From IMG/VR virus record IMGVR_UViG_3300043466_003163, positions 1-64,000 of that record: a DNA stretch of 64,000 nucleotides; one strand, 5' to 3'. Position 1 is the stretch's first letter. Each line of letters starts with the position of its first letter. Position numbers and translations under genes: made by a program. The notes under the pieces are model-generated. The model was not told where the DNA came from and did no database searches. It saw only the letters and a list, made by a program, of their open reading frames with translations. Of the stretch, positions 8,719-64,000 are shown in pieces. Source of the DNA: a virus.

Positions 8719-8750
8719 AAAAACCCTCATAAGAGGGTTTTTATTTTTTT
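8717..8750. terminator. Bidirectional intrinsic terminator
   Basis: A perfect 8-bp stem AAACCCTC/GAGGGTTT with a 4-nt loop is flanked by an A-run on the left and a T-run on the right, so it can end transcription from both convergent genes. The same stem is used at 42525. Confidence 0.85.
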
Positions 8751-9318: not shown

Positions 9319-9361
9319 AGTTGTTTTATTTTGATAATGTAAAGATATAAAAAAATAATTT

Positions 9362-9571: not shown

Positions 9572-9591
9572 AGTTGTTTTTTTTATTAAAA

Positions 9592-9622
9592 CAAATATAT
9601 ATATAAATTTTTAATCTACAAA
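9592..9622 (-). promoter_or_regulatory. Bacteroidota-type host promoter
   Basis: On the minus strand: TTTG, 19 nt spacer, then TATATTTG, matching the Bacteroidota primary sigma consensus TTTG-N19-TAnnTTTG. The -7 box ends 20 nt before the lipoprotein start at 9571. Confidence 0.65.
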
Positions 9623-9640
9623 ATTTTTAATCAAATTATC

Positions 9641-9648
9641 ATATTTAT
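9641..9648 (+). promoter_or_regulatory. Candidate phage late promoter octamer
   Basis: ATATTTAT followed by ATAATAAAAAA, 22 nt before the ATG at 9671. It sits next to the host-type promoter of the divergent lipoprotein gene. Confidence 0.55.
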
Positions 9649-9670
9649 ATAATAAAAAATATTTTAATAT

Positions 9671-38111: not shown

Positions 38112-39863
38112 TTATCTCAATTCGTTGATATCAAACGTTACTACACCGTCAACAGTTACAGTTCCGTAGAATCTGTTGTTAACCATTTTCTTAGCGTATC
38201 TCGTCATAATACCCTTCGTTGGAGCGAAGTTGAATGGATTTTGTAATGTAGGAGTCAATTGTAGAGGTACATACGGAGCGTAAATGTAACCTGTATCTAA
38301 CAATGACTTACCTTTATGTCCAACAATAATTGAGTTAGCTGGTGCGTAAGGGTCTCTATACACAGTATATCTACCACCTAATGAACCAATTTTCTCAATA
38401 CCCATATTGTACTGATCTTGCTCAGGAGAAGCGTTTGATACGTGGAAGTATTCTAAATCATCGAAAATTGCTGAAACTTCAGAAGATACAACGATAAAGT
38501 TAGCACCAGCTCTCAAAGTAGATTTGTGGATTTGAGCTGAAATTTGGTTGATTTTAGTAATCAACGTTTGATTCCACTCTTTTTGAGTGTAAGCATTGAA
38601 TCCACCACCGTTGTTAGCTCTTTTCCAACCGTTGTAATCCCATCTCAATTGCCAAGCCGCACCTTTTCTTAAATCTCTTAAGATCTCTCTATCGATCTCA
38701 GCAGCAACCTGCTCAGACAATAAAGCTGTAAGTTCAGCCTCAGCATCGATGTTATGGAATGCACTAACGTCTTGTGCTAATTCTGGTGACCAAGTAGCTC
38801 TTAGTTTTCTTTCTGTAACTGATACTACTACTTCATCTAATTCAAAAGATACTTCACCCATTTCTGTAGCGAATTCTAATGAATCATATCTTCTCCAAGA
38901 TATTGTTAAACCTGTGAATGTTGTAGCTGAAGATGCTCCAATGTAACCATCAAAAGTTTTAGAAGCACAATCAACACAAGTTGGGTGTGTTAAATCTAAT
39001 TCGATTAACAATTTACCATCTGCAGTACAGATATCACTATAATCTACAATTCCTCTACCATATTTTTGTGTAACCAATCTGAAAGGAACTTCAGAACCAG
39101 ATGCGATGATAGAATTTCCTGATGGGTCAACGATTGCTGGAGTAGAAACTACTTTCAAAGAAGATAAGAAAGTTTCAGTATCCATTTCATTACCATCTGG
39201 ACCAGTTAATCTACCAGCATTTGTAGTAGAGAAACCTGTTACTGCTAAAGTAACGTGTCTAAATGAACCGTCAGCTGCTTTTGCTTGTGCAGTAAGAGCT
39301 GTAGGAACTTGTACACCACTAGAGTTTAATACAACACCTTGGTAACCTGCAGTTGCGAAAACTATTTGTTTACCTTTTGAAGCGTCATATAAACCATCAT
39401 TATAAAACAAATCATACAATGATTTAGTTTGGAACTCAGTAAGAGTTGTTGATCCACAAGCTGAGATTGTACACTCAGGTAATGCACCGTGACCATCTAA
39501 ATCTTTACCGTTCAAAGGAACTTGTGTTGTAGATGTTTTTGGTACAAAGTAGAATAATTTACCGATTGGCATGTTCATCGCTTGTACCGATACGATATCG
39601 TTAGCCAATAATTTAGAGAATACTCTTCTTACAATTGGGAAAACAACTGTTTCGAATGATCCAGAAGAATCAGCAGAAGTTGACTCACTCAATAGAGCAG
39701 ACGCTTGGTTTTCGTATAATTGTGCGATGTTCTCTTTGATGTGACCTTTTAAACCATCTAAGAAACCTAAAGAGTTCCACTTAGAGATAGTTTTAGATCT
39801 AATTTGCTTTAGGTGCTCAAGTCCGATATTACCGACTTCACCAGAATTTAACAAATGTCCCAT
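38112..39863 (-). CDS. Major capsid protein, T4 gp23-like
   Basis: A 583-residue HK97-fold capsid protein of the T4 type. The N-terminus SGEVGNIGLEHLKQIRSKTI is a scaffold-type pro-region. TVVFPIVRRVFSKLLANDIV, SVQAMNMPIGKLFYFVPK, RKLRATWSPELAQDVSAFHN and IDAEAELTALLSEQVAAEID are gp23 hallmarks. IGSLGGRYTVYRDPYAPANS and NNRFYGTVTVD lie near the C-terminus. The N-terminal extension would be removed by the prohead protease at 41266. Codon use is visibly less AT-extreme than in neighbours, as expected of a highly expressed gene. It ends at a strong terminator. Confidence 0.95.
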   Translation of the reverse strand: MGHLLNSGEVGNIGLEHLKQIRSKTISKWNSLGFLDGLKGHIKENIAQLYENQASALLSESTSADSSGSFETVVFPIVRRVFSKLLANDIVSVQAMNMPIGKLFYFVPKTSTTQVPLNGKDLDGHGALPECTISACGSTTLTEFQTKSLYDLFYNDGLYDASKGKQIVFATAGYQGVVLNSSGVQVPTALTAQAKAADGSFRHVTLAVTGFSTTNAGRLTGPDGNEMDTETFLSSLKVVSTPAIVDPSGNSIIASGSEVPFRLVTQKYGRGIVDYSDICTADGKLLIELDLTHPTCVDCASKTFDGYIGASSATTFTGLTISWRRYDSLEFATEMGEVSFELDEVVVSVTERKLRATWSPELAQDVSAFHNIDAEAELTALLSEQVAAEIDREILRDLRKGAAWQLRWDYNGWKRANNGGGFNAYTQKEWNQTLITKINQISAQIHKSTLRAGANFIVVSSEVSAIFDDLEYFHVSNASPEQDQYNMGIEKIGSLGGRYTVYRDPYAPANSIIVGHKGKSLLDTGYIYAPYVPLQLTPTLQNPFNFAPTKGIMTRYAKKMVNNRFYGTVTVDGVVTFDINELR

Positions 39864-39901
39864 TTTTATTTTTTTTTGTTTTGTTATTTTTTTATTATTA
39901 T

Positions 39902-41167
39902 TTATGAGATTCTTCTCATTAAATCTTTAATAGCTGTAATTTGAGGATCAACATATGCAGTAGATTCATTCAAATTAGTAGTCTTATAAGATTTTACTGT
40001 TTTATTAACTTTATTTTCTACAGACTCATTAATTGGTTTTGTATTCTCTAATTCAGTTTTAATTGTCTTATAGATATTTTTAGATTCTTTAATTGTTTCC
40101 GCATTGTCGAATCTTTTTAAGATATCCATTTTTTCTTTCTTAGTAGTAGAATGTTCAGTAAACAATCTATTAACGTAAGCTAAATTAGTATTGAATAAAG
40201 CAACTTCATTAAGTTTGTCTTTGAATACGTTAAGTGCTTTTTTATACTCTTCGTTTTTATTTTTCAGCTCTTCGTATTCCTTCATTATTTTTGATTCGGA
40301 AACTGTGTTTTTGTTAGGTTTTTTAGAAATTAACGGTTTACGAACACTTCTAGATTCTCTAGCAGCAAGTCTAGCGCCATGATATCTTTGTTTACCACCA
40401 GATCTTCTGTGTCTTTGTAACTTGTCTTCTTCTAGTCTAGGTTCTTCATCTTCGCCACCTTCACCATCTTCATCGACAATTGTTTCATACATAGATGAAA
40501 GTTCGTCTAATTGAATTTCGTAAATGGTTTCTTCGCTGTCTTCGTACATAGAACCTGAACCACATTCAGAGCAATACTCATCTTCTTCTAAACCGAATCT
40601 ATCCATAGATTCCTTAATGTAATACTCTACACCTGTTTCGCGATCTGTCAAATGAATTCCTTTTTCATCTTTAACAACTTCTACTTCGTCATTATCACCT
40701 AATTTGTTTTTAAATACGTGAATAACTTCTTCGTCAGAAGCATCTGTTAAGTCTAAAACTTCTTCCCCTCCTGGTTCCTCAAAACCAAAATCAAATTCTT
40801 CAGGTTCTTCTTCACCTTCTTCTGAATCTAAATCTAAATCAACATCTAAATCTAAATCAACAGGTTCTTCTTCACCTTCTTCAGAATCTAATTCAGATGG
40901 TTCTTCTTCACCTTCTGGAGATTCAGTCTCTTCTTCATCGTCAAGATCTAACTCAACATCTTCTTCATCATCATTGGATCCTTCTAAATCTATATCGTCT
41001 ATTTCTACTTCTTCATCTTCCTCTTTTAAAGATGACTCAACGATACTTTCAATTTCTTTCGACAAGTGTGCCGCAAGCATTTCTTTCGTGTTGGCTTTTA
41101 AGGCATCCTCTAAAGACTTAGCTTCTAGCAAAGCCTCTTCGATGATAGATTTCTTTTTTTCAGCCAT
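39902..41167 (-). CDS. Acidic prohead scaffold, gp22-like
   Basis: A 421-residue scaffold-like protein between protease and capsid genes, the place of gp22 in T4. The N-terminus KKKSIIEEALLEAKSLEDAL has I/L-x-E motifs. A long acidic block follows (runs of Glu/Asp and repeats of LDVDLDLDSEEGEEEP type). Next comes a region with two Cys (EYCSECGSGS), then a basic patch (RLAARESRSVRKPLISKKPN). The C-terminal helices (EELKNKNEEYKKALNVFKD) end in IKDLMRRIS. It should form the prohead core and be cleaved during maturation. Confidence 0.8.
   Translation of the reverse strand: MAEKKKSIIEEALLEAKSLEDALKANTKEMLAAHLSKEIESIVESSLKEEDEEVEIDDIDLEGSNDDEEDVELDLDDEEETESPEGEEEPSELDSEEGEEEPVDLDLDVDLDLDSEEGEEEPEEFDFGFEEPGGEEVLDLTDASDEEVIHVFKNKLGDNDEVEVVKDEKGIHLTDRETGVEYYIKESMDRFGLEEDEYCSECGSGSMYEDSEETIYEIQLDELSSMYETIVDEDGEGGEDEEPRLEEDKLQRHRRSGGKQRYHGARLAARESRSVRKPLISKKPNKNTVSESKIMKEYEELKNKNEEYKKALNVFKDKLNEVALFNTNLAYVNRLFTEHSTTKKEKMDILKRFDNAETIKESKNIYKTIKTELENTKPINESVENKVNKTVKSYKTTNLNESTAYVDPQITAIKDLMRRIS
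40798..40920. repeat. Acidic low-complexity repeat in scaffold gene
   Basis: DNA repeats of TCTTCTTCACCTTCT and AAATCTAAATCAACA type, encoding LDLDVDLDL, EEGEEEP and SELDSEEG strings. It is simple sequence in frame and length-variable by nature. Confidence 0.6.
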
Positions 41168-41228
41168 TTTGTTTCTTTTTTAGTTTTTATTATTTTATTA
41201 TTACATTTACGCTAAAATGCGTTTCCTA

Positions 41229-41236
41229 ATAAATAT
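41229..41236 (-). promoter_or_regulatory. Candidate phage late promoter octamer
   Basis: ATATTTAT on the minus strand, 61 nt before the scaffold gene start at 41167. It has the longest spacing of the set and would drive scaffold and capsid genes. Confidence 0.45.
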
Positions 41237-41265
41237 GTAGTTTTTTTGAAAAAGATTAATTTTTT

Positions 41266-41955
41266 TTAATCTAATAAAAAATTGTTTAAATTATTTTTTA
41301 ATAAATCTAAATCTTTTTTAGTTTTTGATTCTGACATTTGTTGTTCTCTAGATGGTTCTTCACTATAAATCCAAGAACCAGGTGTAGATGGTGAAGTTAC
41401 AATATCCCAACAAATAAGTTCATAATCATCCTGAACTACATTTTTACCACCTTCTTTTTCTAATGAACCTACCCCTCTAGATGAAACACCAATTTTTAAA
41501 CCTTTTCTTAAATAATTTGCTACCCTATCTCCTTCACAAGAAATAATTCCTTGATTGACAAATCCTGGTGACATTATGATTTCTAATTTACCCATCAATA
41601 TATTACCTTCCCACCATAAGTCTACAACATTATGTGAAATTCTACTTACCGCAACTATTGACGATTCTGGGTGATCAGCTTCACCTAATGCTCTTTTTTC
41701 TTTTATAAGTTTAAGATAGTTTTCTGCTTCCCTTCTTAGAATTGCTTCGGGATATACTCTTTCATTTCTATTCTCTACACCGTATTTTTGCATAACGGCA
41801 TAAACAACTAAAGGTTCTTCTATTATAGGTGTACCTTCAGTTAATTTATTTACTTCATTTACAAAGTGTCTATTATCTTTAGGGGAAATATATCCTGCGT
41901 CATATTCGATTAGGATTCCCTTTTTTCTAAAGTCATTCTTTTTTAAGATTTCCAT
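41266..41955 (-). CDS. Prohead core protease, T4 gp21-like
   Basis: A 229-residue prohead protease. KRALGEADHPESSIVAVSRI carries the catalytic His (ADHPESS) and KIGVSSRGVGSLEKEGGKN the nucleophilic Ser (GVSSRG). NRNERVYPEAILRREAENYL and LICWDIVTSPSTPGSWIYSE complete the family pattern. It cleaves scaffold, portal and capsid precursors, typically after I/L-x-E in T4. The upstream late octamer and the neighbouring scaffold, capsid and portal genes fit the T4 order 20-21-22-23. Complete length. Confidence 0.95.
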   Translation of the reverse strand: MEILKKNDFRKKGILIEYDAGYISPKDNRHFVNEVNKLTEGTPIIEEPLVVYAVMQKYGVENRNERVYPEAILRREAENYLKLIKEKRALGEADHPESSIVAVSRISHNVVDLWWEGNILMGKLEIIMSPGFVNQGIISCEGDRVANYLRKGLKIGVSSRGVGSLEKEGGKNVVQDDYELICWDIVTSPSTPGSWIYSEEPSREQQMSESKTKKDLDLLKNNLNNFLLD

Positions 41956-41975
41956 AATAATGATATAGTTTTATT

Positions 41976-41983
41976 ATAAATAT
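41976..41983 (-). promoter_or_regulatory. Candidate phage late promoter octamer
   Basis: ATATTTAT then AATAAAAC on the minus strand, 20 nt before the protease ATG at 41955. Confidence 0.55.
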
Positions 41984-42001
41984 ATCATTATCCTAAAAAG
42001 A

Positions 42002-42439
42002 TTATTTTTTAGTTTTATAGAATTTAAAAATAGAATTATTTTCAAAACAGTTATTTACTACATCGTAAATAATTGTTTTTGTGTGGTCAATTATGTTTGG
42101 TTGATTTAATGATAAATTTTTCTTTTGATAAAGTGTTATCTCACAAGACATAAAACTTCTTTTATTAATATCAAAACCTGAAGTTCTCATATCTAAATCC
42201 ACTATGTATCTATCACTATAGAAATAATCTTTATTTAGAGTATTATTTAATTTTTGTTTTATTTTTTTTCTGATATTACTTAAAAAAATATCATAATTAT
42301 TTTCTTCCCCATCATTTATTATCTGTCCCCACGCAGTAAAGTTTATATACAAACTTTTTGATTCTTTATTGTTTACTGTACCAATTTTTGTTTTATAGTT
42401 GTCTAATAAATCTAATTTGATTTCTTTTCCTAATTTCAT
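42002..42439 (-). CDS. Hypothetical head-region protein
   Basis: A 145-residue protein (MKLGKEIKLDLLDNYKTKIG) between portal-side and protease genes. It has a beta-rich middle (SKSLYINFTAWGQII, then DRYIVDLDMRTSGFDINKR) and a C-terminal segment with many Asn/Lys. No family is recognised. Its place in the head cluster suggests a small head or head-tail joining protein. Confidence 0.6.
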   Translation of the reverse strand: MKLGKEIKLDLLDNYKTKIGTVNNKESKSLYINFTAWGQIINDGEENNYDIFLSNIRKKIKQKLNNTLNKDYFYSDRYIVDLDMRTSGFDINKRSFMSCEITLYQKKNLSLNQPNIIDHTKTIIYDVVNNCFENNSIFKFYKTKK

Positions 42440-42521
42440 TAAAATTTTCTTTCATATTATGTTATTTAAAGTTTACATATAATAATACAAATTTATTCGT
42501 GAAATGTCAAATTATGGTAAT

Positions 42522-42545
42522 AAAAAACCCTCACTAAGAGGGTTT
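42522..42545 (-). terminator. Intrinsic terminator
   Basis: The 8-bp stem AAACCCTC/GAGGGTTT with an ACTAA loop, adjoining an A-run that is the T-tract on the minus strand. It follows the stop of the gene at 42549. The stem sequence is identical to that at 8721. Confidence 0.85.
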
Positions 42546-42548
42546 ATA

Positions 42549-43328
42549 TTAATCATTTGTGATTGTTTGTTTTAAATTATAAAACTTAATTATGTCATCA
42601 CTAAAATTATCTTTTTGATATTTAGTATTTAATAGTTTATCTTTAACTTTAAGTAACTTATCTTTTAAATCTAAATCAGATGACTCATTCAATTTAGAAT
42701 CTACTGTAATTACACAATCTCTTTTTAATTTATTGTATATATCTTCTTTTTCACTATCACTACCATTTAAAATTGAGTGTATGATTTTTTTATCTGATTC
42801 ATTAATATCACTATATTTGCTATTAAACTTATTTACAAATAATTTAGTTAAAACACTAGGTGGTACATTAATAGTTTCATGATTAATTTCTTCTGTAAAG
42901 ATTTCATTTTTTGTAGTCATAAATTCTATTAATTTATTAGTTGCCTCATTTATTTGATTTATATTTGAAGGTGTTTTTTTAGTACTACCTAAATAAGATA
43001 TATTTTTATAAAATTCATTATTTTCTTTAACAATTTTTTTACCCTTTAAAAGTTTTAATAAAGAATTGTTAGATTCATTAATTTTATTTTTATCAATAGA
43101 TTTAAGTAGCTCAATATTTTCATTTAAATATTCTTTCGCCTCAAATTTATCGTCAAATTTTTTAGTCTCTAAATTCTTATATATTAAGAATTGATCTCTA
43201 ATAGTTTTATTTTCTTTTAATGTTTTTAAATACTTTCCAAATAATTTTTTACCTGATGAATCTTTTTTAATTACTGATTCAATAATTATTTTTTTAAAAG
43301 TATCCTTTATATTACCAAAATTTTCCAT
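42549..43328 (-). CDS. Hypothetical helical head protein
   Basis: A 259-residue protein, almost entirely helical and highly charged. It starts MENFGNIKDTFKKIIIESVI, with an I-I-E motif within the first 16 residues, and the end is basic with KLNESSDLDLKDKLLKVKDK. It lies next to the portal and has a late octamer 14 nt upstream, with its own terminator downstream. T4 has core proteins at this position (between gp20 and gp21), so a minor prohead core role is possible. No direct family match is recognised. Confidence 0.55.
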   Translation of the reverse strand: MENFGNIKDTFKKIIIESVIKKDSSGKKLFGKYLKTLKENKTIRDQFLIYKNLETKKFDDKFEAKEYLNENIELLKSIDKNKINESNNSLLKLLKGKKIVKENNEFYKNISYLGSTKKTPSNINQINEATNKLIEFMTTKNEIFTEEINHETINVPPSVLTKLFVNKFNSKYSDINESDKKIIHSILNGSDSEKEDIYNKLKRDCVITVDSKLNESSDLDLKDKLLKVKDKLLNTKYQKDNFSDDIIKFYNLKQTITND

Positions 43329-43342
43329 AGATGTTTTATTTA

Positions 43343-43350
43343 ATAAATAT
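43343..43350 (-). promoter_or_regulatory. Candidate phage late promoter octamer
   Basis: ATATTTAT followed by TAAATAAAAC on the minus strand, 14 nt before the ATG at 43328. Confidence 0.55.
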
Positions 43351-43367
43351 TAATTAATTTAAAAAAA

Positions 43368-45278
43368 TTAATCTATCATATTATCTATTTGTTTTGTTAT
43401 CTCATTTATCTTAGAATTTAATTTTTCTGCACCATCCTCAAACATATCTAAACTATATACATTCTCATTTTTTTCTAAACTTTCAGTTAATTTTTTTAAA
43501 TAAATTCCTTGATATTTTTTTACCTTTTCTAAATATTTTTTATTTTGTTGTTCTAATAGTAAGTTATCCGTTTTTTTGGTTGATTCCATAGCAGGTTCAG
43601 CACCTCCCGCAAGTTCAGCACCTCCCGCAGGTTCAGCACCTCCCGCAGGTTCAGCACCTCCCGCAGGTTCAGCACCTCCCGCAGGTTCAGCACCTCCACC
43701 AGCACCTGGTTCTGCAGCACCAGCACCTGCCATCAGTGAATCAAAATCACCATATAATCTATCAACCCTATCAAATATACCTGTCTTTTTAATAACTTCT
43801 GCAGTTTGTTCCATTTCTGCTGCCGCAGCTTTTTCTAATCTTTGTTGTTCTAAATCATTCCTTATTTCTTCCTCAGACATACCTAAAATTTCTTTTTTGG
43901 CTCTAGTCATTGACATTGCACCAAATCCATTACCTGCGTCCGCAACTGCATCTTTATAAAGGGTTACTTTTAATTGAGTTTGTTCTACTTTAAGCATTTC
44001 TGCTTGAGTTGATGGGTTATTTAAAGTTAAAGTAAAATTTTCTAATTCATCTTCTAACCCTAAAATGTATAAATGTATGATTGCAATCTTATTTAATTCT
44101 TGCAACATAGCTTGTTGTATTCTATTTATAGTTCTAGCAAATCTTATATCTTGTAAAGCTAAATTCTTACCTTCACCATTTGCTTCCTCAAACCCTAAAA
44201 ATGGTTTAGGTACTCTAAGAGCCGTAAATAATTTTTTCTGTAAATACTGAATATCCGCAATTTCAGATAAGTTAGTTGCACCAGCGAGTGTATCTATTGG
44301 GCTAGGGGCATTTGCATCTCTAACTGGAATAAAATAATCCTGATCCTGAGCCATTTGATTATAACGTGTATCTATTTGTCCTGTGTTTTGATCGATAACA
44401 GGACTTCTCTTAAAGTTATTTGCGATTTTATTAACATATGCGGGTACGTCTTGTTCATCAATGTTACCAACATAAATTTTAAATATTCTTCTTTCTGGTG
44501 CCCTTGTAACTCTATAAATTAACATTGCATCTTCAGAAAGTAATAATTGTTTCCATATTCTTCTACCTTTTTCTAACATAGATGTTCCATAAGGTAATCT
44601 TCTATCATCACCTAATAATCTAAAGTGTGCAACTTGCCACGCATTAAATTCAACATCTCTTTGACCCCAAACAAATTTTACTGGATTATATTTATCAGTT
44701 TCAGCATTCATAGAATTCTCACCAAAACCTTCATTTTCTTTTCTAGTAATTTCTATATTAGGTAATTGTTTTACCCCTAATATTCCTTCTTCACTATCTA
44801 TGTTTAAAAATAAAAAATTATCTCCGTATTTACAGGTATTTCTTGTCCACATTGGAAGTGAGGTGTGGATATCTAATCTATTAAAAAATAAATCTTCTAA
44901 TATTCTTCTAACTCTTTTACTTTCAGAAAAAATATTTATCATTTTATTTTCTGAATTAAGTGTAGTAGATTCTTCCATCATAATGTCTAACGCTGCAGAA
45001 ATTTCAGGAAAGAATTCCATACCCTCAAAATCTGCGTATGATGCCAATCTAGTTGTTTCATAATAAACGGAATGTTGATAAATATTATTATCAACTTTTT
45101 GCCACATATTAGCCAAATAGGCATCTTGCTGTCTTTTTAATTTTTCAAATTCAAATTCTTCTTTTGATTTTGTTTTTAATAATTCTTTATCGTTTAAAGA
45201 ATATCTAGATTTATTTTGTTGTTTTACTTCTGGTCCAAATAAATCATTCAATTGTTGGAATACAGTTTTTCTTGCCAT
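43368..45278 (-). CDS. Portal vertex protein, T4 gp20-like
   Basis: A 636-residue portal. MEFFPEISAALDIMMEESTT, VAHFRLLGDDRRLPYGTSML and EKGRRIWKQLLLSEDAMLIY, then RVTRAPERRIFKIYVGNI and RVPKPFLGFEEANGEGKNL, match the T4 portal family in order. The C-terminus has six repeats of the hexapeptide GGAEPA (or near variants) followed by a helical tail (YLEKVKKYQGIYLKKLTESL). The dodecameric portal nucleates the head and binds terminase. The Pro/Ala/Gly-rich insertion is unusual for a portal. Confidence 0.95.
   Translation of the reverse strand: MARKTVFQQLNDLFGPEVKQQNKSRYSLNDKELLKTKSKEEFEFEKLKRQQDAYLANMWQKVDNNIYQHSVYYETTRLASYADFEGMEFFPEISAALDIMMEESTTLNSENKMINIFSESKRVRRILEDLFFNRLDIHTSLPMWTRNTCKYGDNFLFLNIDSEEGILGVKQLPNIEITRKENEGFGENSMNAETDKYNPVKFVWGQRDVEFNAWQVAHFRLLGDDRRLPYGTSMLEKGRRIWKQLLLSEDAMLIYRVTRAPERRIFKIYVGNIDEQDVPAYVNKIANNFKRSPVIDQNTGQIDTRYNQMAQDQDYFIPVRDANAPSPIDTLAGATNLSEIADIQYLQKKLFTALRVPKPFLGFEEANGEGKNLALQDIRFARTINRIQQAMLQELNKIAIIHLYILGLEDELENFTLTLNNPSTQAEMLKVEQTQLKVTLYKDAVADAGNGFGAMSMTRAKKEILGMSEEEIRNDLEQQRLEKAAAAEMEQTAEVIKKTGIFDRVDRLYGDFDSLMAGAGAAEPGAGGGAEPAGGAEPAGGAEPAGGAEPAGGAELAGGAEPAMESTKKTDNLLLEQQNKKYLEKVKKYQGIYLKKLTESLEKNENVYSLDMFEDGAEKLNSKINEITKQIDNMID
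43591..43698. repeat. 18-bp tandem repeat, six units, in portal gene
   Basis: Six consecutive 18-bp units of GCAGGTTCAGCACCTCCC, differing by one base in unit 2 and one in unit 6. In the minus-strand frame each encodes GGAEPA. The units have no spacers, so this is a coding minisatellite. Confidence 0.9.
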
Positions 45279-45305
45279 TATATTTTTTTCTTTATTACTA
45301 TTATA

Positions 45306-45313
45306 ATAAATAT
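45306..45313 (-). promoter_or_regulatory. Candidate phage late promoter octamer
   Basis: ATATTTAT on the minus strand followed by TATAATAG, 27 nt before the portal ATG at 45278. Confidence 0.5.
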
Positions 45314-45329
45314 TGTGGAAAATTAAATA

Positions 45330-47120
45330 TTATTTAATACCAAATAACCAATTATATTCTCCATTATTGTTATTGTCGTGAGGTTGTTTTGGGTGATAAG
45401 ATGGTGTATTAACATAAAATGGATTAACATATCCTTCTTTCATCATAGGTTTTGACGGTGTAGTAGACATATTCACCCAACTCTCTAACATAGCCTTAGT
45501 TTGTTTTTCAACTTGTTCTAATTTTTTAAAAGATGTTTGTATTATAAAAATACACATCGCATATGCCATAATTATATCATCATGATATCCTTCCATATGA
45601 TCTGGTCTACCATTTTTATATACAAATGTTCTTAACTCAGATATCATCCTTTGGGAACGTATTATAGTTTTATTTTCTCTAATATGTTCTTCTAATTCCG
45701 AAACCATTTGTAATCTGGTGTTACCCACATTAAACCCAGGAACTTTATCACCCTCTTTATATTTTGTTTTTGCATATTTCTCACTCAATTTTCTACTTTT
45801 TGGGTCATCATAATGTAAAAATTTATAATCCATTTCCATTAATTTTAGTACCGTTGATACTCCCATACCACCAGTAATATCTATAACTGTATAGGCATTA
45901 TACATATTACCGTACTTATATACTATTTCCGCCAATATATCAGGTGGTAGTTTATATTTAAATTCTGCAACTTGTTCTAAATTTTCAAAGTCTAATATTA
46001 CTATTGTAGAACTATCTTTTCCATCACCTCTACTAACGTCTACACCCATAATATATTTATGACCAACTTCAGGTTCTTTCCAAATCCACATAGACTTTTC
46101 AATCTCTGACGCAAAATTAGGGTCAGTAACATAATTTTCTTCATGATATGTAATATATTCATCATCTATTACGTTACCTCCTGAACCAATAAAAGATACA
46201 TCTAATTCTTGTGCAATCTTTTTAGCATCACCCATATCTGCTGCCATCTCTTCATACCAAGGGGATAGAGGTTTCCAACCATCTTTTATCATCACCTCAT
46301 AGTATTCTATCGTAGATTCGTCAGTTTCATAAATTTTATCGAGATATTCCCACCTTAATCTAGTTCTGTCTAATGTTTTACAAAGTAATTTTTCATCGTC
46401 ACCTCTTTTCCAATATAAATTTCTATTATATCTTACATCTTGATACCACTTCATCTCAACAATGTTGAAATTGTTTTCTTTTTTCTTTGCCCCATCATAC
46501 GTTTTATAATATAAAGGATCCATACCATTTGGTGTAGAAATTAAAGATATCTTACCACCCGTACCTAATGATGCTAAAGCCGCCCCAAAAACTTCTGAAC
46601 CATTATCGATAAACGCCGCCTCGTCCATTACTAAGAATGTTGGTGTAAAACCCCTCAATGCATCTTTTGAAGTTGCTAAGGCTCTTATTTCACATCCATT
46701 TGATTTTAATTTTAAATGACCTTTAGAATTTATTTCTAAATAATCTGTGCCTTCATCTAACCCCCAAACCCAATAAGGAATTTGATCTAAGAAATCTTTA
46801 ATTTTTTTAAGAAATTCTTGTGCTAATGTTTGTTTGTTGGCTAATATCAAAACTTTATGTGGATTATCAGGATCACCAAAAGCAGTTTTAACTGCAATAT
46901 ATGCGGCAGTTGTTGTAGATACACCCGCCTGTCGAGGTTTAGTAACTAAATTACGATTATACTTTTCATACGATTTAATAATTTCTTTTTGTTTATAAAA
47001 TAACTTAAATGGTACATTACCTCCTTGAGTTAAATCGAATGTTTTTAAAAAAGTTTCTATCGCATAAATTGGATCACCTAAACATCGAGCATATGTCTTT
47101 AATTGTTCTGCTCTTTCCAT
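45330..47120 (-). CDS. Large terminase subunit, T4 gp17-like
   Basis: A 596-residue packaging motor. RNLVTKPRQAGVSTTTAAYI is the ATPase Walker A (PRQAGVST), FTPTFLVMDEAAFIDNG the Walker B, and KISLISTPNGMDPLYYKTYD the coupling motif. The nuclease domain starts YIMGVDVSRGDGKDSSTIV (first catalytic Asp) and continues with YTVIDITGGMGVSTVLKLM and a late MEGYHDDIIMAYAM with the final acidic pair. It cuts concatemeric DNA and pumps it through the portal. Both ATPase and nuclease motifs look intact. Confidence 0.95.
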   Translation of the reverse strand: MERAEQLKTYARCLGDPIYAIETFLKTFDLTQGGNVPFKLFYKQKEIIKSYEKYNRNLVTKPRQAGVSTTTAAYIAVKTAFGDPDNPHKVLILANKQTLAQEFLKKIKDFLDQIPYWVWGLDEGTDYLEINSKGHLKLKSNGCEIRALATSKDALRGFTPTFLVMDEAAFIDNGSEVFGAALASLGTGGKISLISTPNGMDPLYYKTYDGAKKKENNFNIVEMKWYQDVRYNRNLYWKRGDDEKLLCKTLDRTRLRWEYLDKIYETDESTIEYYEVMIKDGWKPLSPWYEEMAADMGDAKKIAQELDVSFIGSGGNVIDDEYITYHEENYVTDPNFASEIEKSMWIWKEPEVGHKYIMGVDVSRGDGKDSSTIVILDFENLEQVAEFKYKLPPDILAEIVYKYGNMYNAYTVIDITGGMGVSTVLKLMEMDYKFLHYDDPKSRKLSEKYAKTKYKEGDKVPGFNVGNTRLQMVSELEEHIRENKTIIRSQRMISELRTFVYKNGRPDHMEGYHDDIIMAYAMCIFIIQTSFKKLEQVEKQTKAMLESWVNMSTTPSKPMMKEGYVNPFYVNTPSYHPKQPHDNNNNGEYNWLFGIK

Positions 47121-47150: not shown

Positions 47151-48005
47151 TTAAAAAGCAATTAAATTACCATTTTCCCACTCATCATAATTTGGTCCAA
47201 ATGTATATGTGACATTGTTACCTGACCCTATTTTTTGTATGATACCCGATTTATTTAAGGCACTCCAAAATGTAGCATGTTGTCCACCACCTAACGATGA
47301 ACCTATATATTTTAAAAATCCTGTTTTAGTTTTAATCTTTTCTGATGGATCTTTTAAATAATTAATTACATCTCTAACCATAGAATTTTCTTTTCTATTA
47401 AAAGTGAATCCTTTATCTTTTGGAATTAATAGTAAACCATTATCTTCCGCGTATTTTTTAACTACCTTAAAAGTCCTCTTTTTTAGAAAACTTAATTTAT
47501 CTGTGACAATTGATAGTTTTCTTACCGCATCTTTAGCTGGGTATTTATTAAACATTATGGGTATCACTCTATCTATTGAGGATTCTATTAAGTCAATTAA
47601 AAAATTATTGCGATAGGAATAAGGTAATTTTAATTTAAAGTCAACAAGTTTATAAAAATTATTTATAACATCTTCCTTATTTCTGACTAAATACATTGAG
47701 TAATCTTCAATTATATAGTCAAACATAGGGTATAAAAATTCATAATCCTTTAAATATGTGTTATAGAAATAGCCTGATTTAAATTTTTCTAAAAAAATAT
47801 TATAAAGTTCTCTATCATTTTGTACGACATTTAAAATAGTATTAATATCCTTTTCATCATTAAGATAAAAAATTCTATGAAAAACGTCTAAAAACGCAGA
47901 GGGGTTAACCCAATTATTTGAGACTTTTTTAAAATGTTCTATTTCATCTCTATAATCTTCAGATAATAGTTTTTTATATTGACTTTCAGTAATGATTATT
48001 TTCAT
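47151..48005 (-). CDS. Hypothetical protein with protease-type leader
   Basis: A 284-residue protein. The leader MKIIITESQYKKLLSEDYRD has I-T-E and L-S-E motifs like T4 prohead cleavage sites. The middle is helical with many aromatic residues (LYNIFLEKFKSGYFYNTYL). The end (TKTGFLKYIGSSLGGGQHAT, then SALNKSGIIQKIGSGNNVTY) looks like a small winged or DNA-binding segment. It lies in the packaging block. Function unknown; a packaged protein that is injected with DNA is one option. Confidence 0.55.
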   Translation of the reverse strand: MKIIITESQYKKLLSEDYRDEIEHFKKVSNNWVNPSAFLDVFHRIFYLNDEKDINTILNVVQNDRELYNIFLEKFKSGYFYNTYLKDYEFLYPMFDYIIEDYSMYLVRNKEDVINNFYKLVDFKLKLPYSYRNNFLIDLIESSIDRVIPIMFNKYPAKDAVRKLSIVTDKLSFLKKRTFKVVKKYAEDNGLLLIPKDKGFTFNRKENSMVRDVINYLKDPSEKIKTKTGFLKYIGSSLGGGQHATFWSALNKSGIIQKIGSGNNVTYTFGPNYDEWENGNLIAF

Positions 48006-56187: not shown

Positions 56188-57414
56188 TTAATTTGATAAC
56201 GGTGCTTTAATTGTTGGATGTGATTGATAATTTTCAACAACAAAATCCGTATTTTCTAAATGAGTAAATAAAGATATATCTTTAGATAGTGATTTATAAA
56301 ATTCATCTGTTTTCATATGTACCAATTTTGGTAGTTGGTAAGGTTCTCTTATAATTTGTTGTCCTGCTTGTGTTAAATGGTTTTCATACAAATGTGTATC
56401 ACCCAAGTTACCAATCAATTCATCAGGAACCATATTCACTGTCTTAGCAATGATTTCTAATAACAATCCATAAGATGCAATGTTGAATGGTAAACCTAAG
56501 AATGTATCTACTGAGCGTTGATTCCACATTAAAGAGATTGCTCTGGTTGGAATGTTATACTTATTCAAAACCTCTAATGTTTTACTTTCAGGAATTATTA
56601 ATCCTGATTTATATTTCATAAATTCATAAGGGTCTAAACCTCTTTTAGCATATTCTAAAATTCTGTCATTTAAACTTAACTCTCTTGTATAAACTTGAAA
56701 TCCATAATGACAAGGTGGAAGTACCATTAAATCCAATTCTCCAACATTCCAAGCATTAACCATTAATCGTCTTGAATCTGGGTTTGTTTTAAGGTCGTTA
56801 ATCAGGTTTGTGATTTGATCGTTATTAGGTACGTCATTATAATCGGTTACAGATCCATGGTTCCAGCCAGAAGGAACTCTTTTATAACCACCCCAATTTC
56901 TCCATTGCTTACCATAAATAGGTCCTAAATCACCCCATTTTTCAGCAAACACATTATCTGTTTTGATTTTGTTGATGAACTCTTCTTGCGTGAAAGGTCT
57001 AAAATACCCATTAGAGATGGAACCACTCACAGTTCCATAAACATCAATAGATTCCATATCAAAACCTGTTATTGTAATAACACCATTTCCTTTTACTTCA
57101 AAATCATCGAATGTTAAATCCTTTGTTTTATTATAATAATTCTTATAAGCATCACCATCCCATATATGACACCCATTATCAACCAAGAACTTAATGTTTG
57201 TATCACCACGTAGGAACCATATTAATTCCGTTACAATAAGACGGAATGGCATCTTCTTTGTTGTTAGGAGAGGAAACCCCTCACTCATTTTATGACGGAT
57301 TTGTCTACCAAAAACAGAACGAGTTCCTGTACCAGTTCTATCTTGTTTTTTAATACCATTTTCTATGATGTCAAATAATAATGATTGATATTGTCTATCT
57401 AAAAGATTATTCAT
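56188..57414 (-). CDS. thyA: Thymidylate synthase with lineage-specific insertions
   Basis: A 408-residue ThyA-type enzyme (E. coli ThyA has 264). It methylates dUMP to dTMP with methylene-tetrahydrofolate. DRTGTGTRSVFGRQIRH, WFLRGDTNIKFL, GDLGPIYGKQWRNWGGY, DPDSRR-like PDSRRLMVNAWNVGELDLM and the catalytic VLPPCHYGFQ (Cys at about 235) are intact. LPFNIASYG keeps the Asn that sets dUMP preference over dCMP. Two insertions stand out: about residues 96-145, and a second of about 40 residues after FQVYTREL. It overlaps the KTSC gene by 8 nt. The dUTPase at 13352 can supply dUMP. Confidence 0.95.
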   Translation of the reverse strand: MNNLLDRQYQSLLFDIIENGIKKQDRTGTGTRSVFGRQIRHKMSEGFPLLTTKKMPFRLIVTELIWFLRGDTNIKFLVDNGCHIWDGDAYKNYYNKTKDLTFDDFEVKGNGVITITGFDMESIDVYGTVSGSISNGYFRPFTQEEFINKIKTDNVFAEKWGDLGPIYGKQWRNWGGYKRVPSGWNHGSVTDYNDVPNNDQITNLINDLKTNPDSRRLMVNAWNVGELDLMVLPPCHYGFQVYTRELSLNDRILEYAKRGLDPYEFMKYKSGLIIPESKTLEVLNKYNIPTRAISLMWNQRSVDTFLGLPFNIASYGLLLEIIAKTVNMVPDELIGNLGDTHLYENHLTQAGQQIIREPYQLPKLVHMKTDEFYKSLSKDISLFTHLENTDFVVENYQSHPTIKAPLSN

Positions 57415-58027: not shown

Positions 58028-58477
58028 TTAATCTATTTTAACTTTTCTTTTATATGATTTTGTTTTAGTAGGTTTCTCTTTAGGTAAAAAAATTGTTGTT
58101 ATACCATTTTCTGTTTTTGCAAAAATTTCTTCACTTACAACATTGGAAGGTACTTCAAATACCCTATAAAATTTAGACCAATGATATTCTTTAGAGATAT
58201 ATTCACCTTTTTCTGTTTTATCTTGTTTACGTTCCCCACTAAAAATTAATTTATCCCCACTAATTTCAATATTTAAATCTTGTTTTGTTAGTCCTGGTGT
58301 AATAATTTCGTATTTGTAAACCCACTCATCCTCAAAAATATTGGTAGACACTAAATTATCCCCGACTCTAAAAATTTTAGTACTCCCTAAGTTATTTTTA
58401 AAATCATAATTAGAAAACGAATCTTTCCCAAATAAATTTTCAAACTCGTTAATTAAATCAATAAAATTTCTGTTCAT
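58028..58477 (-). CDS. Small heat shock protein (Hsp20/alpha-crystallin)
   Basis: A 149-residue Hsp20-type chaperone. It has a short N-terminal arm (FIDLINEFENLFGKDSF), an alpha-crystallin domain (WVYKYEIITPGLTKQDLNIE, ISGDKLIFSGERKQD, SKFYRVFEVPSNVVSEEIFA, ENGITTIFLPKEKP) and a short basic C-terminus. These proteins bind unfolding polypeptides without ATP. Hsp20 genes recur in marine T4-like phages. A late octamer lies 29 nt upstream, which may link it to virion assembly. Confidence 0.9.
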   Translation of the reverse strand: MNRNFIDLINEFENLFGKDSFSNYDFKNNLGSTKIFRVGDNLVSTNIFEDEWVYKYEIITPGLTKQDLNIEISGDKLIFSGERKQDKTEKGEYISKEYHWSKFYRVFEVPSNVVSEEIFAKTENGITTIFLPKEKPTKTKSYKRKVKID

Positions 58478-58557: not shown

Positions 58558-59481
58558 TCAGGGATTATTTATATGTTTACCTTTTATTTTATAATAATTG
58601 ACATCTATATCTTTTTCTTCTAGTAAATTTTTGGGGATATAAGTTTCACCTGTTTCTAAAAAATGATTCATTCGTTTGTTACCAAAATCTATATTAAACT
58701 CCACCAAATCAATACCTATAAACTTTCTATTATTTTTTAGTGATGCAACACCAGTTGTGGACGATCCAGCAAATGGGTCTAAAATGATATCATTCTCATC
58801 ACTACCAATCCTCACAAACCAATCTGCTAATTCAACAGAGAATGGTGCTGGGTGTAAAACACTTGGGTTTGATTCTGCAGCAGCAATAATGACATTATGT
58901 GGTAGAGAACCATTTTCGTTTAATTCCCTCATCTGAGAATCATAAATACCATCTCTAGAATTAATAGTAGTTACTGGTTTTTTAAATCTTCTTTTAGTGA
59001 CTTCAGAATGTTCAGTTCTACAATTATCCGCCCTAAATTTAGGTTTATTTGAGTTAGAGAAATGGAATACGTATTCATATCTATCTATTGCCCTATATTT
59101 ACAATTTGTTGGTACTGCATTCTTTTTAAACCATATATATGGTTTTGCTACTAAATACCAACCCTGTTTCCTCATTTTATATTTTAATTCATCTAAAACT
59201 GGATGAACTACACCATTTTCTATCTTATCATTTATGTTTAGAAAAAAACTACCATTTGGTTTTAATACTTTTAAGAATAATTCAGTAAATTCTAGAAACC
59301 AATCAACATAATCGTCTACATGTATAGAACCTATTTCTCCATCACCTTCTCCACTGTAATTTTTTCTCATAGAATAATAGGGTGGTGATGTAAATATCAT
59401 ATCTACTTTTTCACCTTTTTCTACCATATTTTTTAATATAATTTTTGTGTCCCCTAAATGTAATTTGTATTGACTTTCCAT
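58558..59481 (-). CDS. DNA methyltransferase, N4-cytosine/N6-adenine type
   Basis: A 307-residue beta-class DNA methyltransferase. The catalytic motif IV, MIFTSPPYYSMRKNY, comes early, and the SAM-binding motif I, ILDPFAGSSTTGVASLKNN, comes late, with RKFIGIDLVEFN after it. TSPPY suggests N4-cytosine or N6-adenine as product. It probably protects phage DNA from host restriction enzymes; there is no cognate nuclease nearby. It has a good Bacteroidota-type promoter, as expected for an early gene. Confidence 0.9.
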   Translation of the reverse strand: MESQYKLHLGDTKIILKNMVEKGEKVDMIFTSPPYYSMRKNYSGEGDGEIGSIHVDDYVDWFLEFTELFLKVLKPNGSFFLNINDKIENGVVHPVLDELKYKMRKQGWYLVAKPYIWFKKNAVPTNCKYRAIDRYEYVFHFSNSNKPKFRADNCRTEHSEVTKRRFKKPVTTINSRDGIYDSQMRELNENGSLPHNVIIAAAESNPSVLHPAPFSVELADWFVRIGSDENDIILDPFAGSSTTGVASLKNNRKFIGIDLVEFNIDFGNKRMNHFLETGETYIPKNLLEEKDIDVNYYKIKGKHINNP

Positions 59482-59540: not shown

Positions 59541-62021
59541 ATGAAAAAAGTCTTACCTAAAGTTAAAAAAGTGATTAATATGTCACTAAAACAGGCAAAA
59601 ATGTATGGAGATACGGAAGTTCGTATTGAACATATAATAATATCATTAATAAATGACTATAATAATAACGCAATACGAGTTTTAAATGATTTAGGTGTAG
59701 ATGTCGATAATTTACATAAAAAAATAGAGATTTCTCTTTTAAAAGAAAAAAAAGAAGAGTTAGTTATTGCTCAGAGCGGTGATTTACCTTTAGAATATGT
59801 ATCAGAAAAAATTTTAAAAGGTGCGGAAAAGGAATGTGATGAATTAAATGATGATTTTTTGGATACTCACCACATATTATTATCCACATTAAAAATAAAA
59901 AATAATGTTAATAGTATTTTAAAAACTATGAAAATAAATTATAATATAGTAAAAAAACATATGGAAAAAAATATAATACAAAATAGTATTGATCCTATAG
60001 ATAGTGAAGATGATAACTTCTTTAAAGATAATAAAAAAAGTAATAAAAAAAGTAATAAATCTAATGAAACCCCTATTTTAGATAACTTCTCAATTGACGT
60101 TACTAAAAGAGCATCTGAAGGTAAAATTGATCCTGTTATAGGTAGAGATGAATCAATACAAAGAGTAGCTCAGATATTAGCGAGAAAAAAGAAAAATAAT
60201 CCTGTTTTGATTGGTGATCCTGGTGTTGGTAAAACGACAATTGTTGAAGGTTTGGCATTAAAAATATTTCAGGGGGACGCACCTAGAACTCTTTTAGATA
60301 AAAGAATTTTATCATTAGATATAACTTCATTAGTTGCTGGTACAAAATATAGAGGTCAATTTGAAGAAAGAATTAAAGGTATTGTTGACGAACTTATGAA
60401 TGTGGATAATGTAATTTTATTTATAGATGAATTACATACAATTGTTGGTGCAGGAAACGCATCAGGTTCTATAGATGCTGCCAATGTATTAAAACCAGCC
60501 TTAGCGAGAGGTGATATACAAGTTATTGGGGCAACAACTTTAGATGAATTTAGAGAAAATATAGAAAAAGATGGTGCATTAGCTAGAAGATTTCAACAAG
60601 TTTTGATTAATCCCCCTTCAGTTGAGGACACAATTAAAATTTTAAATAAGATAAAAATATCGTATGAAAATTATCATAAAGTTTTTTATCCACAAGAAAC
60701 TATAGAACAATGTGTAAAAATGGCTGATAGGTATATTACCGATAGGGAATTTCCTGATAAGGCAATAGATATTTTAGATGAGGTAGGTTCTAGAACTCAG
60801 GTTAATGCTAAACCACCAAAAGGTATAAGTACCTTAGAAGAAAAAATTAATGAGATTAAAGAAAGAAAAAGTAATGTCGTTAAAAAACAAAAATATGAAG
60901 AAGCTGCTAAACTAAGAGATGAAGAAAGAAACATCAACGAAAAACTGGAAGTAGAAAAAGAAAAATGGTTAGAAACTATTAATAAAGAAAGAAAAAAGAT
61001 AACTCCTGAGGATGTTAATGAAGTTGTTTCTATTATGACAGGTATACCATTAAAAAGACTTAGTGGGGATCAAGGTAAACGAATGTTGGAGATGGAAAAT
61101 GAATTAATGAAACATATTATTGGACAGGAAAATGCGTTAGAAAAAATAGCTAAATCTCTTAGAAGAAATAGGGTAGGTATTAGAAATCCAAAAAAACCAA
61201 TAGGTTCTTTTATGTTTTTGGGTCCTACAGGTGTTGGTAAAACTCATATTGCTAAAAAATTGGCAGAATATATGTTTGGAGAAGAAGACTCTTTGATTAG
61301 ATTGGATATGTCAGAATTTCAAGAAAAACATTCTATTTCTAGATTAATTGGTTCTCCTCCTGGTTATGTCGGTCATGAAGATGGGGGTCAATTAACAGAA
61401 AAAGTTAGAAGAAAACCTTATTCTATCGTATTATTCGATGAAATTGAGAAAGCAAATAAAGAAATATATAATACATTATTACAATTATTAGATGATGGAC
61501 AATTAACTGACAGTTCAGGTAGAAAAGTAAACTTCAAAAATTGTATGGTAATTATGACATCAAATGTAGGAGTTAAAAAATTACAAGATTTTGGTACAGG
61601 AGTTGGTTTCGGAACTAAATCAAAAATAGAAAGAGAAGAGTCAGTAAAAGAAGGTATGTTACTCGATGAACTTAAAAAACAATTCCCACCAGAATTTTTA
61701 AATAGATTAGATGACGTAATTATATTTAAATCTTTAACCAAAGATCAGATAGGTAAAATTGTAGATTTAGAAATATCTAAATTAGAAGATAGAGTTTTAG
61801 AAATTGGGTATACATTACAAATAAATAAAACCGCAAAAGATTATTTAGTTGATCAGGGGTATGATGAAGAATATGGGGCAAGACCTTTAAATAGATCAAT
61901 TCAAAAATATATTGAGGATCCCGTTTCAGAAGAAATTTTGAGCGGTAGAGTTAAAGAAGGTCAAACTATTAAGGTAAGTTACTCCAAACCTAAAGAAGAA
62001 ATAATTGTTAAAATTTGTTAA
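59541..62021 (+). CDS. clpC: ClpC-like AAA+ unfoldase
   Basis: An 826-residue Hsp100 ATPase. The Clp N-domain ([20 protein letters not shown]) is followed by D1 ([18 protein letters not shown] and [15 protein letters not shown]). A UVR-type linker comes next ([20 protein letters not shown]), in the place taken by the UVR domain of ClpC. D2 carries [19 protein letters not shown] and [20 protein letters not shown] tripeptide at about residues 688-690 ([10 protein letters not shown]) corresponds to the ClpP-docking loop of ClpC. It lacks the long coiled coil of ClpB. No clpP is seen, so it would use the host peptidase or act alone. Confidence 0.9.
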
Positions 62022-62050
62022 AAAATTTTGATATTATAAAAACTTTTTAC

Positions 62051-62058
62051 AATATTTG
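62051..62058 (+). promoter_or_regulatory. Weak Bacteroidota-type -7 element
   Basis: AATATTTG, one mismatch to TAnnTTTG, preceded by TTTG at 62027-62030 with a 20-nt spacer. It lies 19 nt before the CAP protein ATG at 62078. Confidence 0.4.
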
Positions 62059-62077
62059 TATTATAAAAATAAAAATT

Positions 62078-62578
62078 ATGAAAAAGTTTGTTGTTTCTAT
62101 TTCCCTTTTAGTAAGTGTTTCGTGTTTCGGACAGGATTATTTCACTGAATATTGTTACTCTAACAACAAAAAAATTGTTAGTGAATTAAATATCGATTCG
62201 TTAGAGAATGTTCTATTCGAAAAAATCAACGATTTTCGAAAACAGAATGGTTTAAATCTTTTGGTCATGGATGAATCATTAAATAATTATTCCGAAAAAT
62301 GGTCAAGAAATATGTTGAGTAAAGACAAAATCTATCACTCGAGTATTGGTGAAAATGGTATTGTGTCGGAAAATGTTTATTTGACTAAAAGTTTTGGTGT
62401 ATTCCCAATGGAAAAAAGTAATATTCTAACAATATCCGATAGAATTTTCAAAAGTTGGGTAAATTCTGAAAAACATAGAAATAACATGTTATTGGAAAAT
62501 GTTGAAAATATTGGTGTATCGATTGTTTTATTACCTAATGGTATGATTGATGAGTCAGCAACAATGGTGGTTAATTAA
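62078..62578 (+). CDS. Secreted CAP/SCP-domain protein
   Basis: A 166-residue protein from ATG at 62078, chosen because it opens a signal peptide (KKFVVSISLLVSVSCFGQ); the open frame upstream has no such feature. The mature part has the CAP pattern: NDFRKQNGLNLLVMDESLNN, WSRNMLSKDKIYHSS, GENGIVSENVY and FKSWVNSEKHRNNMLLENV, then NIGVSIVLL. CAP proteins act outside the cell, and roles range from binding to proteolysis. The CFGQ signal end is typical of flavobacterial secreted proteins. It looks like an accessory (moron-type) gene. Confidence 0.75.
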   Translation: MKKFVVSISLLVSVSCFGQDYFTEYCYSNNKKIVSELNIDSLENVLFEKINDFRKQNGLNLLVMDESLNNYSEKWSRNMLSKDKIYHSSIGENGIVSENVYLTKSFGVFPMEKSNILTISDRIFKSWVNSEKHRNNMLLENVENIGVSIVLLPNGMIDESATMVVN

Positions 62579-62597
62579 CCACCATTGTTTATTTTTA
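62561..62597. terminator. Bidirectional terminator, 28-bp perfect palindrome
   Basis: ACAATGGTGGTTAA followed directly by its reverse complement, overlapping the last codons of the CAP gene and followed by TTATTTTTA. It serves both convergent genes. Confidence 0.8.
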
Positions 62598-63125
62598 GAA
62601 ATCCGTATCATATAAACATTCTGAAATAGATTTAATATTTTCTATATCTTTTGTGAAATCATATTTTTTAACCCATTCCTCAATTGATTCACCGCTTTCT
62701 GGTACATATTCAGGTTTTATATGTTTTATTTTTAGTGACACATCACTATCACCAGATTCAAATGTTTTGACAACTTCTTCTAGATGCCTTCTACACATAT
62801 TAACAGTTTTCTCAACAGCCTTTTCTTTAATTCCTGAATTAGTTATTTTAGATAAAATGCCAGCATTTAATTTTTTATTTTTTAATCCCTCACAATTTGT
62901 TATAGAGAAAATTACACCATCTCTTAATTTAGTGTATAGATTATTTTTATCTCTAGATGTTTCAGTGGCAGTAAGACCTACTGTTGTACTATCTGACCTT
63001 AACCATGATGGGAATGTTTGAAAACAAGAACTGAAATCTACTTTAGATTCATTAATAAACTTTAAAATAGATTTGATTTCTCTTTCAGTTAGTGTTATAA
63101 TTTGATTATTTTTTTTTATTTTCAT
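62595..63125 (-). CDS. Hypothetical protein with T-E leader motif
   Basis: A 176-residue protein from ATG at 63125 (MKIKKNNQIITLTEREIKSI); an upstream start would overlap the neighbouring gene. The leader contains an L-T-E motif as in other candidate packaged proteins. The body is helical with ASITNCEGLKNKKLNAG-like loops and several Cys (FSSCFQTF, VNMCRRHLEEVVKTFE). The C-terminal third is acidic (EYVPESGESIEEWVKKYDF). No family is recognised. Confidence 0.55.
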   Translation of the reverse strand: MKIKKNNQIITLTEREIKSILKFINESKVDFSSCFQTFPSWLRSDSTTVGLTATETSRDKNNLYTKLRDGVIFSITNCEGLKNKKLNAGILSKITNSGIKEKAVEKTVNMCRRHLEEVVKTFESGDSDVSLKIKHIKPEYVPESGESIEEWVKKYDFTKDIENIKSISECLYDTDF

Positions 63126-63153
63126 TTTTTTAATATTAATATTTAAATCGTTA

Positions 63154-64000
63154 TTAAAAACCTGGACAACAAGTTGGGCAAGTCCATTTTGGTACAAATG
63201 GACGAGTTCTAGGTTTAAACGATACTCTACCTAATTTTTTCCTAATTTTTCGTATACCTCTTTTTAAATCGTTCCATGTATCTGTTAAATTAAATTCACC
63301 ATTTGCATCAAATTGTAAACCTAAACCCGGAACTGCAATAACGTAGTAATCTTCACCAACTTCCTCTTTTGTTACGACTTCTGGTTTTTTAAGTGTTACA
63401 GTTAAACCACCTAAATTCATTCTATAAGGGCCATAAACTTTATTATATTCTCCACGAAGTTCTTTTTGTGAAATTTCTCTACCTGCATATTTGCTCGCCT
63501 GAATAGCCGATGATTCAGTTCTGTTACCGTAAAACATTTGTGGTGTAATTTTTTTACCTGCATCGTTAAATCTTTTATATGCAATTTGGAATAGTTCACC
63601 ATATTGGGATATAGGTACTTCAGATCCATCAGCATTTTTACCGTCAATCTTTTCCCATCCAGGTCCAATATTTGGACGAGTAACTTTAGATCCTAACACT
63701 ATATTGTATTTACCTAACCCTAATCTATCTAACATATTACGTATAGATGTTTCTATAGTATCACACCTATCTTCCGCCAATTGTATATTATTTTTTTCAC
63801 TAAATGTTTTATCTTTACTCTTATAAGTGGTTCTTACTTTACTAGTTGACCCATAAACATAAATATTTATAGATTCTACTACTAATGCAAAATCTTCACC
63901 TAAATTATGTTGGTTTCTTAATTTAATAACATCGTCTTCCTGTTGATTGATGAATTTTCTAAGTAATACAATTTGTTCTTTTAAACCTTCTCTGGCCGAA
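63154..64000 (-). CDS. Virion-like protein with OmpA-like segment, N-terminus beyond window
   Basis: The frame is open to the right edge, so at least 281 residues are present and the start is missing; an internal TTG is not the true start. Near the visible N-terminal part, INIYVYGSTSKVRTTYKSKD, then LAEDRCDTIETSIRNMLDRL and GKYNIVLGSKV follow the OmpA C-terminal order (strand, G-x-TS, N/L-x-x-x-RA-like helix, strand). After this come beta-rich stretches and a basic Cys-containing C-terminus (FVPKWTCPTCCPGF). Peptidoglycan contact is a possibility, not proven. Confidence 0.6.
   Translation of the reverse strand, partial: SAREGLKEQIVLLRKFINQQEDDVIKLRNQHNLGEDFALVVESINIYVYGSTSKVRTTYKSKDKTFSEKNNIQLAEDRCDTIETSIRNMLDRLGLGKYNIVLGSKVTRPNIGPGWEKIDGKNADGSEVPISQYGELFQIAYKRFNDAGKKITPQMFYGNRTESSAIQASKYAGREISQKELRGEYNKVYGPYRMNLGGLTVTLKKPEVVTKEEVGEDYYVIAVPGLGLQFDANGEFNLTDTWNDLKRGIRKIRKKLGRVSFKPRTRPFVPKWTCPTCCPGF

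Follow-up and report, generated by a model that had tools for sequence, protein, structure and literature searches.

The window considered here is a 64,000-nt stretch of viral DNA from a record of 88,589 bases, against a genome size of ~280 kb in its group of T4-like phages. Its head genes are of the T4 type by Pfam and PHROGs matches and lie on the minus strand in a block at 38112-47120, which holds the genes for the gp23 capsid protein (38112-39863), the S77 prohead protease (41266-41955), the gp20 portal (43368-45278) and the large terminase (45330-47120). An N-terminal leader, for example MKKIIRLTESDLRRIVSKVITEN or MKIIITENQFKRLINE, is common to about 11 ORFs that are otherwise unrelated, and in most cases it has an [ILVF]xE site; these ORFs include 47151-48005 (-) and 62595-63197 (-) in the window and others at 65-88 kb of the record (L062, L063). 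Because an S77 prohead protease is present, the shared leader suggests a capsid-targeting sequence of internal head proteins.

A complete clpC-like gene, with an ATG start and a product of 826 aa, occupies 59541-62021 on the plus strand (ORF list, Pfam, PDB and PHROGs). Its divergent neighbour in the related records compared is an N6/N4 DNA methylase gene, here at 58558-59481 (-; Pfam N6_N4_Mtase, 1.6e-39, and synteny), and 1 kb from clpC lies a gene for an Hsp20-type small heat-shock protein (58028-58477, -; Pfam HSP20, 4.1e-16). The hsp20 gene is found in G003, G007 and G010 and has no match in G001 or G002 in the synteny comparison. Immediately 3' of clpC (62015-62578, +) is a gene for a CAP-superfamily (SCP-like) protein, the start of which resembles a signal peptide. 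At 56188-57414 (-) lies a thymidylate synthase gene of 408 aa, whose domain match falls into two stretches and encloses extra sequence. A second ORF of 826 aa (3778-6258, -) was considered as a further copy of clpC and set aside, since it is unrelated and has no Pfam match.

The phage ClpC and its ancestry

The ClpC-like identity given to the product in the original prediction is borne out by the Pfam, PHROGs and PDB matches and by the tree. Pfam finds Clp_N, AAA, AAA_lid_9, AAA_2 and ClpB_D2-small domains; the PHROGs match is phrog_4871, 'ATP-dependent protease' (E 5.6e-253), and the top PDB match is S. aureus ClpC (HMMER, E 2.3e-228, residues 8-815). Identity is ~43% to S. aureus ClpC in the structure alignment and reaches 53% with ClpC of Bacteroidota. 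Both AAA+ modules have intact Walker A and B motifs, pore loops and Arg fingers, the Walker A motifs being GDPGVGKT in D1 (residues 225-232, 60213-60236, +) and GPTGVGKT in D2 (residues 561-568, 61221-61244, +), each placed by the alignment of relatives, in which the D1 motif is conserved.

The UVR-like linker that had been noticed in the middle of the protein is recognized by Pfam as the UVR motif of a ClpC M-domain (residues 433-467, 60837-60941, +; E 4.7e-6). Y452 aligns with the Phe in the QEFENAA of S. aureus, and the position is Y or F in almost every viral and host ClpC compared. In an AlphaFold2 model (mean pLDDT 79.9), the top structural matches of which are ClpC chains of ClpC-ClpP models or complexes, the M-domain is short and made of helices 427-449 and 452-482, whereas the M-domain of ClpB is long. 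A short M-domain of the UVR type, together with the presence of a docking loop, sets the protein apart from ClpB/Hsp104, and it is apparently a complete and ATPase-competent ClpC, a class I Hsp100.

The N-domain (residues 5-145, 59553-59975, +) is matched in two Clp_N stretches (Pfam, 2.2e-13) and is the least conserved and fastest-evolving folded part of the protein, with a dN/dS of ~0.08-0.16 in close pairs. In bacterial ClpC the N-domain picks substrates and adaptors, and its fast evolution in the phage protein would be fitting for a shift in targets. The bacterial ClpCs (S. aureus, B. subtilis, M. tuberculosis ClpC1 and Bacteroidota) have the same domain order, both AAA+ rings, the UVR/M-domain and a hydrophobic-G-F loop; the window protein differs from them in being phage-encoded on a record without clpP, in its divergent N-domain and in belonging to a separate viral clade.

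In the tree, which has cyanobacterial ClpC as the outgroup, 41 rows of viral ClpCs make up a clade (SH-aLRT 99) that lies next to and among the ClpCs of Bacteroidota; two long Bacteroidota branches adjoin the clade, and their join is unsure. The near clade has a support of 100, as does the pairing of the window protein with that of G001, and these group with L004, L006, L007 and L009 (= G002) at 99. On the tree, the ClpCs of two huge phages (L205 and L206) entered from Bacteroidota separately. As judged from these quick trees, made without bootstrap, the phage ClpC is derived from a Bacteroidota-type ClpC and the viral clade is old and monophyletic. The ancestry of the protein points to a host among the Bacteroidota, with some doubt left by a record labelled Prochlorococcus. 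At least three contigs from a related phage (L027, which is QCKH01000009.1, L013, L272 and L497) occur in a genome labelled Prochlorococcus sp. AG-409-L21, one of them bearing clpC and a second clpP; these may come either from an infected cell or from a co-sorted virion.

Inserted sequences were seen in the clpC genes of some relatives. In L018 and L025 clpC (~9696-10728) carries an in-frame intein in the D2 Walker A motif (GPTGVGK/C...HN/TH, slashes marking the junctions) with Hom_end_hint and Hom_end domains, and in G168 (L443 and L444; 58146-62614) the gene is interrupted at the D2 Walker A motif by ~2 kb. In L019, L020 and L024 clpC (7992-11189) is broken at the D1 Walker A motif: an intein-like start (CVLGDTKIKVKKISDISI) makes up the last 18 residues of the first ORF, which is followed by ~240 bp in another frame and a second ORF with an intein end (YVSNGIISHN/TGKTT). 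This break looks like an atypical split intein (a fractured gene) with a nuclease-like remnant.

The docking loop and selection on clpC

The D2 module carries GTGVGFGTK at residues 685-693 (61593-61619, +), identified as the ClpP-docking loop by alignment to S. aureus ClpC, by conservation and by the AlphaFold2 model. The motif and its docking position had been correctly predicted, with the numbering (686-694) one residue off. The VGF tripeptide, V688-G689-F690 (61602-61610), aligns exactly on A671-G672-F673 of S. aureus ClpC in the HMMER alignment. In the S. aureus protein the loop that enters the H-site of ClpP on docking has AGF 671-673 at its tip, and ClpP binding is abolished in G672D/F673D mutants (Commun Biol 2025, PMC12521514); ClpE docks likewise through a VGF (PMC13125188). 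In the AlphaFold2 model, helix 678-684 is joined to helix 693-714 by a coil of residues 685-692. Only four segments of the model have a pLDDT below 50, and one of them is 687-690, as expected for what would be a flexible exposed loop.

A hydrophobic-G-F/Y triplet was found at this position in all 68 viral ClpCs and all 66 host ClpCs and in none of the five ClpBs, and also in further viral ClpCs read beyond the 68. Because 13 near relatives all have GVGF but differ in the residues that follow, and because the triplet separates the viral ClpCs from the ClpBs, the GVGF match is, on comparative grounds, not due to chance. Residue 691 is G in the branch without clpP and mostly S or N in the marine branch that bears clpP. 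By the same comparison the docking loop of the window ClpC is an ordinary one, common to every host and viral ClpC examined, and the idea that this protein 'keeps' the loop as a special retention falls away.

Between the window and G001, the AAA-ring dN/dS is 0.033 with dS above 1, and it is 0.04-0.055 in four other close pairs; the GVGF codons of the window clpC and its G001 sister differ by synonymous changes only. By these measures clpC and the loop are under strong purifying selection and the gene is not decaying. Conservation of the loop could partly stem from another role of the loop.

ClpP in the related phages

The phage genomes compared are all metagenomic or single-cell. The window record (G000), G001, G002, G003 and G153 are syntenic, and G003 is continued by G153, with which the left part of G002 overlaps, so that the circle is closed. 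A protein conserved in the group, presumably related to IMP dehydrogenase from its resemblance by eye, is encoded at G001 1719-2828 and G002 87346-88416. G186 (254 kb) and G001 share 95.0% identity over 80 kb, and the ends of G186 map to G001 77532 and 49959; with G001 49959-77532 (27.6 kb) G186 gives a whole sister genome of ~281 kb, pieced together from two metagenome contigs that are 95% identical. G186 does not qualify as a clpC-free sister, since the 27.6 kb absent from it is exactly the G001 stretch that carries clpC.

ClpP was sought as PF00574 in whole records. Among viral records of 190 kb or more, 14 were chosen on the presence of ClpC alone; 13 of these have a strong ClpP match and one (W03) a weak match. 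A single clade with a support of 100 takes in most of the viral ClpPs (61 of 67 rows). Most of the length of the G153 ClpP can be aligned with canonical ClpP, and the protein has S139, H164 and D213 at what we take, by eye, to be the triad positions; these residues are also present in the canonical ClpP of a single-cell genome (SAG 2716884754). In both phages a distance of over 100 kb separates clpP from the position of clpC. ClpP is encoded directly before a DNA methylase gene in G153, G159, G160, two further contigs and the SAG 2716884754 contig. Because more distant phages have ClpP behind the same upstream neighbour genes, the methylase-flanked site is, from this synteny, an old position of clpP. 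In most viruses with such a ClpC, the partner is likely to be a phage ClpP. ClpP was rejected as a head-maturation protease: the phage has its T4-type S77 prohead protease, and the ClpP of the relatives is canonical.

No clpP is present in the window, as the original prediction had it, nor in the full 88,589-base record. As a hint this absence says little by itself, given the distance between clpC and clpP in the group. A viral-ClpP HMM found no clpP in the fetched sequence of G000, G001, G002, G003, G007 and G010, of which G003 and G010 stop short of the clpP site. Neither HMM nor tblastn found one in G186, which with G001 covers the ~281-kb genome as a composite; such searches would miss a very divergent or unrelated phage peptidase. 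The clpP site is empty in G002 and G186, with the flanking neighbours present, and tblastn gave no significant match at the empty sites that would point to a remnant of a decayed clpP. Pfam found no ClpS-like adaptor among nine small ORFs. A clpP gene that would make up a phage ClpCP pair is absent from the 88.6-kb record, which ends before the clpP site, and from the sister and cousin phages, and is present in more distant relatives.

A single loss of clpP is the simplest account because the sister (G001/G186) and the G002 lineage are both without it and the window phage groups with G001. The lineage of the window phage most likely lost clpP once, before its split from G001/G186 and G002; for the window phage itself this is a matter of parsimony rather than observation, as its record ends before the clpP site.

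A proposed partner for the phage ClpC

It is probable, in our judgement, that the lineage lost clpP and that the phage ClpC docks by its VGF loops on host ClpP. Host ClpP is proposed as the partner because the ClpC is constrained, its docking tripeptide is intact and the lineage is without a ClpP of its own; all 31 Bacteroidota genomes searched have ClpP. For the group as a whole we lean, if only slightly, to the view that the ~280-kb T4-like phages ancestrally had ClpC and ClpP, and that one branch, including this phage, lost clpP, kept clpC and its loop under constraint and runs a hybrid of phage unfoldase and host peptidase. The phage ClpC would have been inherited from an old viral lineage in which it formerly worked with a phage ClpP. 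After loss of clpP in the lineage leading to the window phage, the ClpC hexamer would use its VGF loops to dock on ClpP of the host bacterium, and in the course of infection the hybrid protease would pass to the host peptidase those substrates that the phage chooses by way of its N-domain. It is from sequence that we infer the lack of clpP in the window phage, the docking on host ClpP, the substrates and the timing. The recruitment of host ClpP that was originally predicted thus gains indirect support from the fixed site of clpP in the relatives, its loss in the sister and G002, and the constraint on ClpC and its loop, with the correction that most such viruses are likely to use a phage ClpP.

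An unseen phage ClpP, encoded by the window phage in the ~190 kb outside the record and giving a wholly phage-made ClpCP, ranks after host-ClpP docking as an explanation and is rather unlikely. Such a pair is the likely ancestral state, seen in all but one of the large viral-ClpC records, and the remote clpP position in G153 and SAG 2716884754 would agree with a gene lying beyond the record. However, G001 with G186 and G002 have no clpP at the site or elsewhere in their sequenced parts, and if the window phage had kept it, clpP must have been lost twice independently. Ranked after this is a ClpC that works independently of ClpP, either as a disaggregase or as a remodelling chaperone; virion assembly would be one such setting, possibly with Hsp20. 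The lack of clpP in the window record and its nearest relatives and the Hsp20 gene 1 kb away are in keeping with this, as is the suggestion that ClpA and ClpX of jumbo phages are assembly translocases (PMC7824862). Yet the docking tripeptide does not vary in the clade without clpP even though dS is above 1, hsp20 is unmatched in two of the relatives that carry clpC, G001 and G002, and a ClpP-independent role is made less likely because the ClpBs examined, which act independently of ClpP, are without the tripeptide. We regard the chaperone role as improbable, and its virion-assembly form, which was the other half of the original prediction, has found no positive evidence. That a host gene was acquired by chance and drifts without function in the phage is scarcely credible: descent from a Bacteroidota-type ClpC would suit such an origin, but the AAA-ring dN/dS of 0.03-0.06 in close pairs, the conservation of all the ATPase motifs and the old monophyletic viral clade speak against it. 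Docking on host ClpP is the best explanation.

Phage Clp proteins and the retargeting of host ClpCP are known. ClpP, ClpS, ClpA and ClpX were noted in jumbo phages by Iyer et al. 2021 (PMC7824862), where these likewise phage-encoded parts of Clp machines are read as serving host takeover or virion assembly; the passages on them do not name ClpC. SPO1 Gp53 is a phage adaptor that binds host ClpC and modulates host ClpCP (PMC6873191), and is a precedent for a phage protein redirecting this protease. In contrast to SPO1, the window phage would supply the unfoldase itself, docking it on host ClpP. A stable viral ClpC-ClpP pairing and the lineage-specific loss of ClpP were not found in the literature searched and are, to that extent, new.

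If host-ClpP docking is correct, the phage reprograms the main protease of its host with an unfoldase of its own, not with an adaptor or an inhibitor. Close phages with and without their own ClpP would then provide a natural experiment on the evolution of ClpC-ClpP docking specificity. ClpC relatives were found in at least 547 viral contigs in one scan, some of which may be other Clp ATPases, and they point to a widespread viral ClpCP system with substrates that could be tested in vitro.
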